DNA of 64,000 nucleotides, taken from positions 9,982,001 through 10,046,000 of the forward strand of contig NZ_CP070225.1 in NCBI RefSeq assembly GCF_021631985.1, read 5' to 3'. Positions 42,131-49,635 of this stretch are shown piece by piece. The notes beneath the pieces were generated by a model. The model saw only the letters and a program-made list of their open reading frames with translations, was not told the DNA's origin and did no database searches. Made by a program: the position numbers and the translations under genes. Origin of the DNA: Sandaracinus amylolyticus. GTDB lineage: Bacteria > Myxococcota_A > Polyangia > Polyangiales > Sandaracinaceae. The stretch's first letter is position 1; every line of letters starts with the position of its first letter.

Positions 42131-42404
42131 CCGTCCAGGTACGTAGTCCCCGCGCCCCCGCTCCATTCCCGCGTGTTTTGGTCGGAAATGGTCCTTTAAC
42201 GCGGAGCCTCCCGAGAACCTACCGAAACCACCTGGCAACACCCACCCGATCAGGTGCATCCTCGGGCGCCTCCGACCCGGGGGGTCTCGGACGTTCGTGC
42301 TCGGCGAATGAATGCGACTGCACGCATCGCAGTCATTCGGCGGCGCACTGCGCGAGGGGCGCCTCGTTCCGGACGGAGAGCTTCGCAGACCGACCGGAGA
42401 CCCG

Positions 42405-43472
42405 ATGAACCAACGCAGCTCTTCTCAACCGCGCCTCGCTCGCTCGCTCGGGATCCTCATCGCGCTGGTCGCGGTGCCCGCGAGCCTTCCCCTCTTCGGA
42501 TGTGACACCGGAGTGTTCGCGGCGAACACGACGATCGGCGTGATGCGCCGCGCCTCGCCGGGCGTGCAGCGCATGCGCGACCCCGAGATCCTCGAGACCG
42601 CGTTCCCCGCGTCGATCCAGCAGATGGAAGGTCTGCTCGAGATCAAGCCCGACGACGCCGTGCTGCGCGCGATGCTCGGCCGCAGCTACGCGAGCTTCGG
42701 GTACGGGTTCATCGAGGACGACTACGAGGTCGCGCAGCTGAGCGACGACGCGTCGGAAGAAGAGATCGAGCACCTGCGCGAGCGCGCGTCGCAGGCGTAC
42801 CTGCGTGGTCGCGAGGTCGCGATCGGCGGCCTCGACCTCGCGCGTCCCGAGGGCGGCGGTCTGCTCGCGCAGCAGAGCCAGGGTCTCGAGGCGTTCACCG
42901 CGCACGTCAACCGCTTCGACAACCGCGAGAACCACGCGCCGCTGCTCTTCTGGGCCGCCTACAACTGGGTGCGCTGGATCAGCCTGCACCGCGACGACAT
43001 GGGCGCGATCGCAGACCTCTCGTACGTGACCGCGCTCGCGGAGCGCGCGTACGAGCTCGACCAGAGCTACATGGACTACGGCCCGGTCGCGCTGCGCGCC
43101 GGCCTGATGGCGGCGGCGCCCCCGCAGCTCGGTGGTCGTCCCCAGGACGCGCGCGTCGAGCTCGAGCGCGCGATCCAGCTCACCGAGCGCAAGAACCTGC
43201 TCTACCTCGTGACGATGGCGCAGCTCGTCGCGATCCCGCTCCAGGATCGCGCGCTCTTCGAGTCGATGTTGAACGAAGTGGTGGCCTTCGACGTCGATTC
43301 GTTCCCCGACCAGCGGATCCCGAACCTGCTCGCGCAGCGCCGCGCCCGTCGTCTGCTCGCGCAGATCGACGACCTCGTGCCCCCGCCGATCGAAGGCGAA
43401 GGGGAAGGCGAGGGCGAGGCTTCGGAGCCGAGCGCGTCGGTCGACGCGGCTGGGTCTCCTTCTTCCACCTGA
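42405..43472 (+). CDS. TRAP transporter TatT-component-like lipoprotein
   Basis: A 355-residue protein with a signal ending in a lipobox-like ASLPLFGC (near residue 33). Its helical, TPR-like body resembles the TatT family first described in Treponema (Tp0956): MEGLLEIKPDDAVLRAMLGRSYASFGYGFIEDDYE, AAYNWVRWISLHRDDMGAIADL and YMDYGPVALRAGLMAAAPPQLGGRPQDARVELERAI. TatT trimers associate with the TatP receptor of TRAP systems and may pass hydrophobic ligands. The C-terminus is Glu/Gly/Pro/Ser-rich. ATG at 42405 with CGGAGA seven bases upstream. The DctP-like gene follows after 15 bases, fixing its role in the TRAP system. Confidence 0.87.
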   Translation: MNQRSSSQPRLARSLGILIALVAVPASLPLFGCDTGVFAANTTIGVMRRASPGVQRMRDPEILETAFPASIQQMEGLLEIKPDDAVLRAMLGRSYASFGYGFIEDDYEVAQLSDDASEEEIEHLRERASQAYLRGREVAIGGLDLARPEGGGLLAQQSQGLEAFTAHVNRFDNRENHAPLLFWAAYNWVRWISLHRDDMGAIADLSYVTALAERAYELDQSYMDYGPVALRAGLMAAAPPQLGGRPQDARVELERAIQLTERKNLLYLVTMAQLVAIPLQDRALFESMLNEVVAFDVDSFPDQRIPNLLAQRRARRLLAQIDDLVPPPIEGEGEGEGEASEPSASVDAAGSPSST

Positions 43473-43487
43473 GGAGCCGGACGAACC

Positions 43488-44510
43488 ATGAAGATCCATC
43501 AGAAGCTCGCGCTGTTCCTGCTCGCGGCGTTCGCGCTCTTCGCGATCGACGCGAGCCCGATGAGCGCCCAAGAGGCGGCGGGCACCGCGGCGGCGACGCG
43601 CACGATCTCGCTCGCCACGCTGGCGCCGCCGGGCTCGACCTGGATGCGCGTGTTCGACGCGTGGAACCGCGAGCTGCGTCGCCGCAGTGAGCGCGGCCTG
43701 CAGTTCCGCATCTACGGCGGCGGCGTGCAGGGCGACGAGGCCGAGGTCATCCGCAAGATCCGCTCGGGCCGTCTCGACGCGGCGTCGGTGACCGCGGTCG
43801 GTCTCGCCCAGATCCATCGTCCGGCGCTCGTGTTCCAGATGCCCGGCATCCTGCGCAACTACGAGCAGCTCGATCGCGCGCGCGAGGCGCTCGCGCCCGA
43901 CATGGACGCGGGGTTCACCAGCGCGGGCTTCAAGATGCTGGGCTGGGCCGACGTCGGTCAGTCGCGCATCTTCTCGACGGCGCCGGTGCGCGTGCCCGCC
44001 GACATGGCGACGCGTCACCCGTGGGTCTGGCGTGACGACCTCGTGCTGCCGACCTTCTACCAGGTCATCCGCAGCAACCCGGTGCCGCTCCAGGTGCCGG
44101 AGGTGCTCGGTGCGATCCAGACGGGCCGCGTCGACACCGCGATCACCCCGCCGGTCCCCTGTGTCGCGCTGCAGTGGTGCTCGCGCCTCACGCACATGAC
44201 CGACATGCCGATGACGATCGTGCTCGGCGGCACCGTGATCGGTGGGCGCCAGTGGGCGGAGCTCACGCCGGATCAGCAGACGATCCTCACCGAGACCGCG
44301 ACGCAGTTCCACCAGCTTGCGCGCCGCAACCTGCGCCGCGACGAGCAGCAGGCGCTCACCGAGATCCGCTCGCGCGGCGCGACGGTCATCGAGGTGACGC
44401 CGGCGCAGCAGCAGGAGTGGCTCAACCTCGGCGCGCAGATCCGCACCCGCCTCGTGGGCCAGATCGCGGACCAGGCGCTCGTCGATCGCGTGGCCGCCTT
44501 CGGTCGCTGA
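43488..44510 (+). CDS. TRAP transporter solute-binding protein (DctP/TatP-like)
   Basis: A 340-residue periplasmic receptor. The signal peptide ends near SAQEAA (residue 29). The body has the DctP fold: ISLATLAPPGSTWMRVFDAWNRELRRRS, QFRIYGGGVQGDEAEVIRKIRSGRLDAASVTAVGLAQIHRPALVFQMPGI, then GVDTAITPP-like GRVDTAITPPVPCVALQW and the C-terminal helices. The Arg that contacts carboxylates in classic DctP proteins is not obvious in the region I can align. Pairing with TatT suggests a lipidic or bulky ligand. ATG at 43488 with GAGG about 13 bases upstream. A hairpin and a strong intrinsic terminator follow the stop, separating it from its permease. Confidence 0.9.
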   Translation: MKIHQKLALFLLAAFALFAIDASPMSAQEAAGTAAATRTISLATLAPPGSTWMRVFDAWNRELRRRSERGLQFRIYGGGVQGDEAEVIRKIRSGRLDAASVTAVGLAQIHRPALVFQMPGILRNYEQLDRAREALAPDMDAGFTSAGFKMLGWADVGQSRIFSTAPVRVPADMATRHPWVWRDDLVLPTFYQVIRSNPVPLQVPEVLGAIQTGRVDTAITPPVPCVALQWCSRLTHMTDMPMTIVLGGTVIGGRQWAELTPDQQTILTETATQFHQLARRNLRRDEQQALTEIRSRGATVIEVTPAQQQEWLNLGAQIRTRLVGQIADQALVDRVAAFGR

Positions 44511-44640: not shown

Positions 44641-44795
44641 CAAGCGATCACACCGAGCTGGCGCATCAGCGCGAGCTCGTCGGTGAGGCGCCAGTGCGCG
44701 ACGATGCGGTCGCCGCGGAACCGCTCGATCGTGATCTGCGAGACGCGGATCGCGCGGCCGGTCGGTGCGATGCCGAAGAAGTCGCCGCGGTGGGT
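44640..44795 (-). pseudogene. C-terminal remnant of a SnoaL-like ester cyclase
   Basis: Read on the minus strand, this encodes THRGDFFGIAPTGRAIRVSQ then a segment ending WRLTDELALMRQLGVIA and a stop. THxGxFxGIxPTGR and the W-x-x-x-D-x-x-x-x-xxQLG end are hallmarks of SnoaL-like polyketide/ester cyclases. Only about 51 of the usual 130-140 residues remain, and homology stops abruptly at about 44795. No start or ribosome-binding site precedes it, and the next bases encode a LysR fragment on the other strand. A deletion joined two divergent genes here (inference). Confidence 0.75.
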
Positions 44796-45285
44796 GCGCG
44801 AGCTGCGCAGCCCCGATCAGCCGGACGCGATCCGCGAGGGGCGGGTCGAGCTGGGCATCGCGTGCCTGCCAGTCGAAGGCGAGCTCGAGTCGCGGGTGCT
44901 GGCGACCGAGTCGCTGGTGGTCGCGCTCCCGTCGCGGCATCGCCTCGCGAAGAAGGCGCGGGTCGAGGTCGCCGAGCTGAGGGACGAGCGTTTCGTGATC
45001 GTGCGGCCCGACGTGGAGCCGGCGTGGGCGGGCGCGGTGTCGCGCGCGCTCGCGAAGCACGGCGTGGGCGGCGCGATCGCCCAGGAGACCGACACCAAGA
45101 TCGCGATGCTCGGCCTCGTCGCCGCGGGCCTCGGCGTGTCGGTGGTCTCGAGCAGCATGCGCGTGCTCGAGCGACGGGGCGTGGTGATGCGCCCGGTGAT
45201 CGGCGTCGGCGTGCGGCTGCGGATCGGAGTGATCGCGCGACGCGAACGATCGGCGCGGGCGCAGGCGTTCGTGGACGCGCTCTAG
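44796..45285 (+). pseudogene. C-terminal remnant of a LysR-family regulator
   Basis: About 163 residues match the distal effector-binding domain of LysR regulators: RELRSPDQPDAIREGRVELGIACLP, LATESLVVALPSRHRLAKKARVEVAELRDERFVIV, TDTKIAMLGLVAAGLGVSVVSSSMRVL and RSARAQAFVDAL at the end. The whole HTH domain, linker and first part of the substrate domain (about 130 residues) are missing. A longer open frame (from 44683) exists only because the antisense SnoaL fragment is also open in this frame, so it is not a true N-terminus. Probably inactive, and possibly still transcribed. It ends 4 bases into the convergent AraC gene. Confidence 0.78.
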
Positions 45286-46238
45286 CGCGCGCGCAGCTCG
45301 CGCACGCCGCGGCCCAGCCGCCGTCGCAGCAGGGTCCGCAGCGTGACTCCGTCGCTGTAGCCCACTTCCCGCGCGATCGCCTCGACGTCGTGCGACGTCG
45401 TCTTCATCAGGTGCACCGCGCGCTCGACGCGCAGGTCCTGCACGTAGCCGAGCGGCGTCCGGCCCAGCACCGCGCGCACGCGGCGCGAGAGCGTGCGCTC
45501 GCTCGTCGCCACCGCGCGCGCCGCCGCCGCGAGCGAGAAGCGATCGGCGAGACGACGTCGCGCCCACACCTCGAAGCGCTCGACCAGCGGATCTTCGTGC
45601 GTGAGCTGATCGGGGATCACGAACGGCGCCTGCGAAGGGCGCGCGTCGACGACCAGGTACCGCGCCGCCTGCGCCGCGAGCGTCGGGCTCTTCCTCCGGA
45701 TCCACCACAGCGCGAGATCGACGTGCGCGAACGCGGCGCCCGCCGTCACCCGCCCGCGCGAGTCGACGACCATCTGCGACTCGTCGAGCTCGACGCGCGG
45801 GAAGAGCTCGCGGAAGAGCGGCGCCATCCACCACGTCGTCGTCGCGCGGTGTCCGTCGAGCAGTCCGCTGCGCGCGAGCACGAACGTGCCGGTGCACGCC
45901 GCGGACACCTTCGTGCCCTGGGCGCTCCAGCGTCGGATCAGCGCGACCGCCTCGGCCACGTCGCGGCGCTCGAGCCGCTCGCGCATCGCATCGGGCACGG
46001 TGCAGCCGAGCCCGGGCACGACGACGACGTCGGGCGCGGTGCGCGGAGGCGGCGAGACCGGGACGCGGAGGCCCTGGTGCGTCGTCACGCGCCGGCGCAC
46101 GCCGACGAGCTTCGGCTCGAAGCGAGGCGCGTCCGCCCCGCGCGCCCGTGCGAGATCGGATGCGGTGGTGAGCGTGTCGAGCAGAGACGCCAGCCCGACG
46201 TCGAACGTCCCCTCGAGCGCGAGCACCGCGATCTGCAT
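45282..46238 (-). CDS. GlxA-family AraC-type transcriptional regulator
   Basis: A 318-residue regulator with an N-terminal DJ-1/PfpI-like (GATase1-like) domain: MQIAVLALEGTFDVGLASLLDTLTTA, VVVVPGLGC, and the nucleophile-elbow region SAACTGTFVLARSGLLDGHRATTTWW with Cys retained. AraC helix-turn-helix motifs follow from about residue 225 (SLAAAARAVATSERTLSRRVRAVLGRTPLGYVQDLRVERAVHLM and VEAIAREVGYSDGVTLRTLLRRRLG). GlxA-type regulators sense small metabolites or redox state. The ATG at 46238 is the usual family start; an ATG six codons earlier is possible. The start codon touches a nested inverted repeat shared with the divergent ABM gene. Confidence 0.9.
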   Translation of the reverse strand: MQIAVLALEGTFDVGLASLLDTLTTASDLARARGADAPRFEPKLVGVRRRVTTHQGLRVPVSPPPRTAPDVVVVPGLGCTVPDAMRERLERRDVAEAVALIRRWSAQGTKVSAACTGTFVLARSGLLDGHRATTTWWMAPLFRELFPRVELDESQMVVDSRGRVTAGAAFAHVDLALWWIRRKSPTLAAQAARYLVVDARPSQAPFVIPDQLTHEDPLVERFEVWARRRLADRFSLAAAARAVATSERTLSRRVRAVLGRTPLGYVQDLRVERAVHLMKTTSHDVEAIAREVGYSDGVTLRTLLRRRLGRGVRELRAR

Positions 46239-46276
46239 TGGCGAGAACGATATCATCGTTGTCCATCTCGCCAATG
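46236..46276. promoter_or_regulatory. Nested inverted repeat between AraC and ABM genes
   Basis: Outer arms CATTGGCGAG (46236-46245) and CTCGCCAATG (46267-46276) are perfect inverted repeats. Inside them is AACGAT-N3-ATCGTT. The site sits at the start of the AraC gene and 72 bases before the ABM start, the expected place for an operator controlling both divergent genes. Confidence 0.6.
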
Positions 46277-46347
46277 GCACCTGCTCGGCCCCGCGGCCAC
46301 CGTCCTCTCCACACGCGAACGACGCGTGCTGGCTCGGAGGTGATGCG

Positions 46348-46647
46348 ATGGTGAAGGTCGGTCTGTGGGTGCGGCTCGAGGCGGCGGCGGGGAAGGCGGC
46401 GGAGGTCGAGGCGTTCCTGAAGAGCGCACAGCCGCTCGCGGTCGAGGAGGCGGGCACCGCGGCGTGGTTCGCGGTGAAGCTCGGCCCCTCGACGTTCGCG
46501 ATCTTCGACGTGTTCGCCGACGAGCGCGGCCGTGATGCGCACATCGGGGGCCGGATCGCCGACGCGCTGCGGGCGAAGGCGCCTCAGCTGCTCGCCGCTC
46601 CGCCGGTGATCGAGAAGCACGACGTGCTCGCGGCGAAGCTCGGCTGA
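46348..46647 (+). CDS. Small antibiotic-biosynthesis-monooxygenase (ABM) domain protein
   Basis: A 99-residue dimeric alpha/beta-barrel type protein of the ABM/YgiN family: VKVGLWVRLEAAAGKAAEVEAFLKSAQPLAVEEAGTAAWFAVKLGPSTFAIFDVFADERGRDAHIGGRIADALRAKAPQLL fits the ferredoxin-like strand-helix pattern with the conserved aromatic strand and an H-x-x-G/x-x-x helix. Members include cofactor-free quinol monooxygenases and heme-degrading enzymes. ATG at 46348 with GGAGG seven bases upstream. It is divergent from the GlxA/AraC regulator and likely its target. A strong 13-bp hairpin follows the stop. Confidence 0.85.
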   Translation: MVKVGLWVRLEAAAGKAAEVEAFLKSAQPLAVEEAGTAAWFAVKLGPSTFAIFDVFADERGRDAHIGGRIADALRAKAPQLLAAPPVIEKHDVLAAKLG

Positions 46648-46842: not shown

Positions 46843-49635
46843 ATGGCCGGTGCCGCCCCTTCCGCGAAGCCCGCTCCGTTCCTCAAGCCGCTCGACCTCA
46901 TCGATCGCGGCGTCCTGCTCGCCGAGAGCTCGCTATCGGTCGTGATCGTCCTCGTGATGATCACGCTCGGCGTCGCGAGCGCGCTAGGCAGCTTCTTCGG
47001 GATCCAGCACCCGATCCTGCGGGCCGCGGACGACGTGCTGATGCACGGCACCGTGTGGGCTGCGTTCCTCGGCGCGAGCTTCGCGACACGTGGCCGCAAG
47101 CACCTCGCGATCGACGCGCTCGGCCGACTTCTCCCCGATCGCGCGCGCCGCGTGGTCGTCGCGATTGCGAGCACGTTCGGCGCGGTGGTCGCGTTCGGGC
47201 TCGGGCGCGGCGTCTACGAGTCGCTCGTCGAGCAGGCCCACACGACCGACGAGCAGGTCCGCAGCTTCGCGGAGAGCGGCATCCTCGATGCCGCGGTCGA
47301 CCGCAGCTACGAGTTCCAGTTCATGATCCCGGCGGGCTTCGCGCTCATCGCGATCCGCCTGCTGCTCCACGGCTTCCACGAGCTCCTCGCCGCGGCCAAC
47401 GGCAAGGTGGCGCCGAGCCAGCCAGTGCCGCCCGCGCCCGCCGCGGACGAGAGCATCCCCCACGAAGAGCCCGACGGAACGCCGAGCGAGGCGGGCGATC
47501 CCCTTCGCGTGTCGCCGATCGCGCAGGCGGGCCCGATCGAGATCGGGATCGCGATCGCCGTCCTGCTCGTCCCGATCGTGCTCTCGCTCGGCTCGTCGAC
47601 GTTCATGCCGATCCTTCTGGGCTCGCTCGCGTCGGCCGCGTCGCTCGCGATCCCGCTCGCGCTGCGCGTGCGCAAGACCGGCTCCGCGAAGGCGACCGCG
47701 CCGCTGCCCGAGGAGTTCGCGAAGCTCGACGGACCGGTGCCGCCGCTGGTCGCGGCGTCGGGCGTGCTCGCGACGCTCGCGCTCTCGTACGTCGGCATCC
47801 TCAACATCGAGAACGTGTCGATCCCCATGGGCGTCGCGTTCTTCGCGGTCGTCGCGCTGATGGGCGCGCCGCTCTTCACGTTCCTCGGTGGCCTCGCGCT
47901 CTTCCTCTGGCTGCACGGCTCGGACACCGTGCCGGTCTCGCCGCTCGCGAACGCCGTCGAGGACGTCCTCGGCAACCACTTCGCACGCATGACCGTGCTG
48001 CCGACCATCCCGATCTTCACGCTCGCGGGCTACCTGATGAGCGAGAGCAAGACGCCGCAGCGCCTCGTGCGCGTCGCGCGCGCGCTGCTCGGGTGGCTGC
48101 CCGGCGGTCTCGCGGTCGTCTGCGTCATCGCGTGCACCGGGTTCACGATCTTCAGCGGCGCGAGCGGCATCACGATCGTCGCGATCGGCGGCCTGCTCTT
48201 CCCCGCGCTGATCAAGGATCGTTACCCCGAGAAGTTCTCGCTCGGCCTCGTCACGAGCGGTGGTGCGCTCGGCATCACGTTCTTCCCGTGTCTGCCGCTG
48301 ATCGTCTACGGCATCGTCGCGGGCCTGCAGGAGATGCCGCCGGGGGTCGAGCGGGTCGAGCTCGGCAAGCTGAGCGTCGCAGGCATCCTGCCGACGTTCC
48401 TGATCGTCGGCCTGATGATCCTCTACTCGATGTTCGTCGGCGTCGTGAAGAAGGTCGAGCGCTCGAGCTTCGACGCGAAGGAGGCGGGCGCGGCCCTCTG
48501 GGAGGCGAAGTGGGAGCTCGCGCTGCCGGTGGTCGTCGGCTTCGGCCTCGCGGCGGCGGGCCCGATGGGCGCGGCGTCGTTCACCGCGTTCTACGTCTTC
48601 GTGATCGAGGTGTTCGTCTATCGCGACCTCTCGATCGACAAGGACATCCCGCGGATCATCCCGGACTCGATGGTGCTCGTCGGCGCCATCTTCGTGAAGC
48701 TCTGCGCCGCGACGGTGCTGACGTTCTACTTCGTGCAGGCGCAGACCGCGGACGCGCTCTTCGAGGCGCTGACCTGCGGTGAGCCGGCGCGCGCGTACCT
48801 CGCCGAGCACAGCGACGTGATGTTCCAGTGCCGCGAGGCGGTCGACGCGCTCGCGCGTCAGGGACGCAGCGCGGGCGGTCTGATCGACTCGCCGCTCACG
48901 TTCCTGATCGCGCTGAACGTGTTCCTGCTGATCGTCGGCATGCTCATGGACATCTTCTCGGCGATCGTCGTGATCGTGCCGTTGATCATGGGCATCGCGA
49001 TGCACTTCGGGATCAACCCGTACCACCTCGGCATCGTGTTCCTGATCAATCTCGAGATCGGCTACCTGATGCCGCCGATGGGCCTGAACCTGTTCATCGC
49101 GGGCTTCCGGTTCGGGCGTCCGGTGCCGGATCTCTATCCGGTCGTGCTGCCCTTCATCGGCGTGTTCGCGACGGCGCTGATGATCACGACGTACGTGCCC
49201 TCGCTCTCGCTCGCGCTGCTCGGCGAGCAGGCCGACATGCACCCGGCGACCCCCGAGCAGGTCGAGCCGACCGACGGCGGCGGCGGCACGACCGACGACG
49301 GCGCGGGTGAGCAGCCGGCGGGGGGCGGTGAGGACTGCGAGGTGCCGCGCGAGGGCGAGTCGTTCGAGGAGTTCGACGCGCGCTGCTCGGGCGCAGCCGC
49401 GGGCGGCGGTGGGGCCGCGCCGGCGGCCGATCAGGCGGACTGCGAGCTGCCGCGCGAGAACGAGTCGTTCGAGGAGTTCGAGGCGCGCTGCAGCGCGGGC
49501 GCTGCCGCGCCGGCGGAAGGCGCGCCGGCCGAGGGCGCAGCGGCGCCGGCGGAAGGCGCGACGCCGCCCGACTGCGATCTGCCGCGCCCCGAGGAGTCGT
49601 TCGAGGCGTTCCAGGCGCGCTGCGGCGCGATGTAG
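46843..49635 (+). CDS. Fused TRAP transporter permease DctQM with C-terminal Cys repeats
   Basis: A 930-residue inner-membrane permease. Residues 20-190 are a DctQ-like four-helix small subunit (ESSLSVVIVLVMITLGVASALGSFF, MHGTVWAAFLGASFATRGRKHLAID with the conserved R-x-HL). A Pro/Glu linker follows, then extra helices and the DctM large subunit (about 310-795): FTLAGYLMSES, FTIFSGASGITIVAIGGLLFPAL, GLVTSGGALGITFFPCLPLIVYG, GMLMDIFSAIVVIVPLIMGIAMHFGINPYHLGIVFLINLEIGYLMPPMGLNLFIA. DctQM fusions are known. The unusual part is the tail: three copies of DCE-x-PRE-x-ESFEEF-x-ARC starting at residues 831, 866 and 910 between Ala/Gly-rich linkers. ATG 46843. It lies 2.3 kb from its receptor genes. 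Confidence 0.92.
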   Translation: MAGAAPSAKPAPFLKPLDLIDRGVLLAESSLSVVIVLVMITLGVASALGSFFGIQHPILRAADDVLMHGTVWAAFLGASFATRGRKHLAIDALGRLLPDRARRVVVAIASTFGAVVAFGLGRGVYESLVEQAHTTDEQVRSFAESGILDAAVDRSYEFQFMIPAGFALIAIRLLLHGFHELLAAANGKVAPSQPVPPAPAADESIPHEEPDGTPSEAGDPLRVSPIAQAGPIEIGIAIAVLLVPIVLSLGSSTFMPILLGSLASAASLAIPLALRVRKTGSAKATAPLPEEFAKLDGPVPPLVAASGVLATLALSYVGILNIENVSIPMGVAFFAVVALMGAPLFTFLGGLALFLWLHGSDTVPVSPLANAVEDVLGNHFARMTVLPTIPIFTLAGYLMSESKTPQRLVRVARALLGWLPGGLAVVCVIACTGFTIFSGASGITIVAIGGLLFPALIKDRYPEKFSLGLVTSGGALGITFFPCLPLIVYGIVAGLQEMPPGVERVELGKLSVAGILPTFLIVGLMILYSMFVGVVKKVERSSFDAKEAGAALWEAKWELALPVVVGFGLAAAGPMGAASFTAFYVFVIEVFVYRDLSIDKDIPRIIPDSMVLVGAIFVKLCAATVLTFYFVQAQTADALFEALTCGEPARAYLAEHSDVMFQCREAVDALARQGRSAGGLIDSPLTFLIALNVFLLIVGMLMDIFSAIVVIVPLIMGIAMHFGINPYHLGIVFLINLEIGYLMPPMGLNLFIAGFRFGRPVPDLYPVVLPFIGVFATALMITTYVPSLSLALLGEQADMHPATPEQVEPTDGGGGTTDDGAGEQPAGGGEDCEVPREGESFEEFDARCSGAAAGGGGAAPAADQADCELPRENESFEEFEARCSAGAAAPAEGAPAEGAAAPAEGATPPDCDLPRPEESFEAFQARCGAM

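Follow-up and report, generated by a model that had tools for sequence, protein, structure and literature searches.

The window analysed here, a stretch of 64,000 nucleotides of the Sandaracinus amylolyticus genome, encodes a fused TRAP permease (DctQM) whose C-terminal tail carries three copies of an 18-residue motif with two cysteines, named bead below. By homology to solved TRAP permeases the tail is periplasmic. Our tentative reading is that it forms a flexible arm whose three disulfide-closed beads would dock the TatT lipoprotein and the substrate-binding protein DctP multivalently near the permease. The beaded tail is conserved, and no earlier description of such tails was found for the TRAP family in open-access text. 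The genes of the system are:

42312..43472, plus strand: tatT, TRAP transporter T-component (Pfam TAtT, PF16811, 9e-60)
43488..44510, plus strand: dctP, TRAP substrate-binding protein (Pfam DctP, PF03480, 2e-29; NCBIfam TRAP_S1, 1.3e-91)
46843..49635, plus strand: dctQM, fused TRAP permease of a TPAT-type system, 930 aa (Pfam DctM and DctQ)

The dctQM product matches Pfam DctM (PF06808; 7.3e-63, residues 332-787, 213 bits against a cut-off of 23.8) and DctQ (PF04290; 1.5e-12, 48 bits against a cut-off of 28.3), both above the curated cut-offs, which identifies it as a TRAP permease of the DctQM type. The top seven Foldseek matches of its AlphaFold2 model, built with 15 orthologues, are TRAP QM or M chains (E 9e-18 to 1e-11), in agreement with the TRAP membrane fold, and the nearest solved chain is IseQM (9pym), by sequence as well as by fold. 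The three genes span ~7.5 kb of one strand with tatT and dctP upstream from dctQM; the system is therefore of TPAT type. TatT has a lipobox-like LPLFGCD sequence, and its start is probably at 42402. The TPAT of Treponema pallidum (Tp0956 type) likewise has tatT, dctP and a fused dctQM at one locus, and its TatT belongs to the same TPR-like lipoprotein family; a complex of this TPR-like protein with the DctP homologue, and a hydrophobic ligand, have been reported (PMC5812351). The window system differs by regulator genes between dctP and dctQM and by the long beaded periplasmic tail of DctQM, of which no mention is made in PMC5812351 and PMC10942540. The intervening segment (44683-46647) holds a small ORF, a LysR substrate-binding domain with no HTH match and, on the opposite strand, a regulator of AraC/DJ-1 type, while at a related locus (L044) tatT, dctP and dctQM are contiguous. 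A search of a plasmid collection gave no match.

The tail and its beads are placed as follows:

49219..49632, plus strand: periplasmic C-terminal tail of DctQM, ~138 residues after the last membrane helix (from composition, pLDDT and C-out homology)
49333..49386, plus strand: bead 1, DCEVPREGESFEEFDARC, residues 831-848, predicted helix 841-848
49438..49491, plus strand: bead 2, DCELPRENESFEEFEARC, residues 866-883, profile match, predicted helix 876-883
49570..49623, plus strand: bead 3, DCDLPRPEESFEAFQARC, residues 910-927, profile match, predicted helix 920-928

The sequence-only reading had left open which side of the membrane the tail faces, and homology gives the periplasm. In a solved TRAP permease both termini of the M subunit lie outside (N-out and C-out; PMC9971032), and the C-out terminus is likewise found in PMC11801797. 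In the AlphaFold2 model three helices link the Q and M parts of the window protein, an odd number that keeps the M-subunit topology. Since the M subunits of solved TRAP permeases are C-out, the C-terminus is placed outside and the tail in the periplasm. HiSiaQM (7qe5), PpSiaM (7qha) and IseQM (9pym) share the DctQ/DctM fold and the C-out M subunit with the window protein, but the solved fused chains stop 3-12 residues past the last matched position whereas the window DctQM has ~138 more. The tails of two relatives (L212 and L213) end in a MYXO-CTERM-like signal (16.9 bits in L213, under the cut-off of 20); a MYXO-CTERM signal exposes no more than its short Arg-rich end to the cytoplasm (PMC11980579). 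These tail ends, together with the even number of tail cysteines described below, agree with a periplasmic location. Both relatives (L212:3231-5747 and L213:6862-9540) are DctM proteins with long Cys-rich tails, and a sorting signal of this kind is unexpected on a polytopic inner-membrane transporter.

The tail is acidic (net charge ~-26), with linkers rich in Ala, Gly, Glu and Pro between the three copies of DC[DE]xPRxxESFExFxARC. The sequence-only reading had described three 18-residue motifs from residues 831, 866 and 910; description and coordinates proved correct in the ORF translation and by HMM, as did the spacing of 16 residues between the two cysteines, found in 3 of 3 copies. With the copies from the own genus and from its nearest relative left out of its construction, a bead HMM still picks these three beads and no others from the six-frame translation of the window (domain E 6e-11 to 2e-10, against ~1 for the next match), and the same three are the only matches of the bead profile in the whole own genome at E<=0.001. 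No named domain covers the beads in Pfam or NCBIfam, where a single glycine-rich match lies below cut-off, and the best match in a profile search of the PDB has an E of 0.34 over 12 residues.

A profile search across Myxococcota genomes, as proposed in the sequence-only reading, found the bead type of the window (type 1) in 20 of 183 genomes of the order. No clear match appeared beyond it among 377 genomes of the phylum, where the best outside matches are partial (4.5e-4 and weaker); the genome collections scanned are samples. Uniqueness to this genome, or absence from orthologues, would have spoken against the motif; instead the orthologous permeases, 57-91% identical, carry one to four copies each. 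Within this one DctQM lineage, in Sandaracinaceae and related families, the bead is thus kept while its linkers have diverged. In bead 1, C832, P835, E839, F841, F844, R847 and C848 are invariant among 15 aligned orthologues. Across 31 bead copies no variation is seen at motif positions C3, P6, E10, R18 and C19; position 12 holds F or Y, and 30 copies have F at position 15. A congener and the own genome differ at 3 of 51 bead amino acids, all changes from E to D, while the linkers differ by 20 of 83 and by indels; the sequence comparison therefore points to selection acting on the beads rather than on the linkers.

The cysteines of the bead most likely pair in a structural disulfide. Both are present in 31 of 31 copies, as expected for a disulfide-stapled mini-domain. 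An even Cys number is expected of structural disulfides in an oxidising compartment, and the count is even in 97 of the 101 Cys-bearing tails of related permeases and odd in four; these sequences are kin, so that a p-value on the counts is not to be read at face value, and with one tail per cluster the figures become 32 even against 1 odd (75% identity) and 14 against 0 (65%). In two of the four odd tails the additional cysteine is that of the MYXO-CTERM signal. The structure prediction proposed at the outset gives short helices on disordered linkers: one short helix per bead (pLDDT ~53-73) and linkers mostly at pLDDT 23-36. The helix anticipated between the cysteines is thus predicted once per copy, although it spans only the second half. 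The bead would be a disulfide-closed loop in which an extended C-x-x-P-R segment runs back against a short capped helix, E-S-F-E-E-F-x-x-R-C, with both aromatics on one helix face; packing and disulfide are our proposal from these features. Short linear docking motifs are conserved short helical motifs that occur in several copies in disordered tails with fast-evolving linkers. The window beads resemble them in the short helix, the repetition and the rapidly changing linkers; being apparently closed by their own disulfide, they come closer to micro-domains than to simple linear motifs.

A Cys-braced periplasmic loop in the DctM part is a further difference from solved TRAP permeases:

48772..48888, plus strand: lineage-specific periplasmic insertion before the second hairpin, TCGEPARAYLAEHSDVMFQCREAV..., with invariant C645 and C663

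Helices are predicted in the insertion at 647-655 and 663-672 (AlphaFold2). It is present in 16 of 16 permeases with a type-1 tail and in 1 of 162 without, the exception being truncated by a contig end.

The sequence-only reading knew of no such tail on TRAP permeases. That is true of the solved structures and of most permeases sampled in Myxococcota outside Polyangia, but in Polyangia tails are common. The 178 distinct DctM ends compared, taken from related loci and mostly of Polyangia, fall into two groups, 145 with tails of at least 55 residues and 33 with at most 31, and none lies between. Equally long tails of Polyangia TRAP permeases bear other repeats (GETLDDL; LDLDALE or GLDALED; SVEEMM or SMKELM; DDLLKDML-like), and Cys-rich domains form another lineage-specific type. 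Most sampled TatT-type permeases of Myxococcota outside Polyangia lack a tail, a minority having LPLGNLDLDALL-type repeats; those on the DctM tails of L340, L341, L344, L351 and L336 are apparently convergent. TatT-type permeases in assemblies of Bacteroidota and Ignavibacteriales showed no tails. The lineage-specific repeats imply several origins or remodellings of beaded tails, always on one side of this protein, and the window tail is one flavour of a widespread, apparently undescribed feature. A single motif for all tails, [ST]-phi-[EDKQA]-[ED]-phi, was considered (34 against a mean of 1.7 in shuffles) and dropped as a post hoc pattern found in only 15 of 45 cluster representatives. Nor do the counts support a tail specific to TatT systems: 108 tailed and 30 untailed permeases have TatT on the locus, against 37 tailed and 3 untailed without it, an absence that may reflect a contig edge. 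In the own genome the second TRAP permease (L244, C1:8145702-8146940 and flanking sequence; orthologue L130) bears two tail repeats resembling EF-hands or dockerins, C[QE]PPEDLNCDGNVTIEEMTRY, which by sequence are possibly calcium-binding.

Beads were also found on other proteins. One lies at the C-terminus of a TatT lipoprotein (L057/L314) encoded in a tatT-dctP-dctQM operon, in a genome where one DctQM end (L313) likewise bears two beads, in diverged form. A second TatT with a bead (G177) was rejected as a separate lineage, its contig probably being from a relative of L057, and the two are counted as one. A model of the TatT with the bead gives pLDDT 69-72 over linker and bead, dropping to 46 immediately after, a weak hint that in this protein the bead may pack on TatT. 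In a Ser/Thr kinase (L312; Pkinase 1.5e-27) a bead comes immediately behind the membrane helix, and in another membrane protein (L311), which continues with a periplasmic part, one stands behind the last membrane segments. These are the only two other proteins found: every bead-bearing genome has a bead on a DctQM-like frame or on TatT.

Taken together, the C-out topology, the conserved beads, the disordered linkers and the bead on TatT make a docking module the best-supported explanation. The interpretation in the sequence-only reading is thus supported in part: docking, on the envelope side, is favoured, while its helical hairpin gives way to one short helix with a likely disulfide. The tail would be a disordered periplasmic arm with three mini-domains of ~18 residues that gather the TPAT components, TatT and DctP, at the permease. 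TatT-DctP modules would most likely be the partners, as judged from gene content and sequence: a bead occurs on the TatT of a tatT-dctP-dctQM operon, T. pallidum TatT is reported to form a complex with the DctP homologue, and the own genome has two TatT-DctP pairs (L124, C1:7249000-7263000; L125, C1:2242000-2256000) with no DctQ or DctM within the 14 kb examined. With three TatT and two strong DctM in this genome, such pairs encoded elsewhere might also be brought to DctQM. Against TatT docking stand the many TatT-type permeases without a tail (L150, L158 and others) and some tailed permeases without TatT nearby; a bead on TatT itself would be odd if TatT were the only receptor, and the AlphaFold2 confidence in the beads reaches only ~53-73. 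Bead copies equal TatT genes at 3:3 in three genomes of the own family, a relation dropped because elsewhere one TatT goes with two copies and two TatT with one. A wider idea, which we hold to be doubtful, is that the ~18-residue disulfide-stapled bead is a portable myxobacterial periplasmic docking tag, that one shared receptor would gather several TatT-DctP modules per permease, and that the amphipathic beads of other lineages replace it in the same job.

The beads might instead dock to an envelope component outside the TPAT (peptidoglycan, an outer-membrane protein or a general scaffold), the tail anchoring or positioning the permease. The bead beside the membrane in the kinase and in the other membrane protein implies that the partner may lie outside the TPAT, and tails occur on permeases without TatT nearby. 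We consider this rather unlikely, since beads on DctQM-like proteins or TatT are universal among bead genomes against two other proteins only, and the constant company of the same permease insertion suggests a role within the transporter. That association is the main support for a different, improbable reading in which the beads would contact one another or the permease itself, such as its Cys-braced insertion beside the face where DctP docks, and would control in cis how substrate is handed over. The complete co-occurrence of insertion (C645/C663) and type-1 tails can, however, be explained by shared descent of one DctQM clade, and the AlphaFold2 model shows no sign of ordered linker contact.

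Still less probable is that the tail is a passive disordered spacer of expanding low-complexity repeats with no binding. The Ala/Gly/Pro/Glu-rich linkers, their fast length change and a copy number varying from 1 to 4 would fit, but the bead residues stay fixed across deeply diverged sequences in which the linkers vary, and the bead is also found in unrelated proteins. The two cysteines per copy and the strongly acidic surroundings had suggested a metal or redox module to the sequence-only reading. This role is unlikely, and we give it very little credence: inspection of the beads revealed no conserved CxxC and no extra Cys or His ligands, there is a single Cys pair 16 residues apart and no conserved His, and Cys parity is even in an oxidising compartment.

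Docking of TatT and DctP by the beaded arm would provide a concrete tag for the access of these proteins to a shared permease across the periplasm. It could also account for the function of TatT-DctP pairs without a permease of their own, and would extend the known repertoire of envelope transporters by multivalent disordered tethers.
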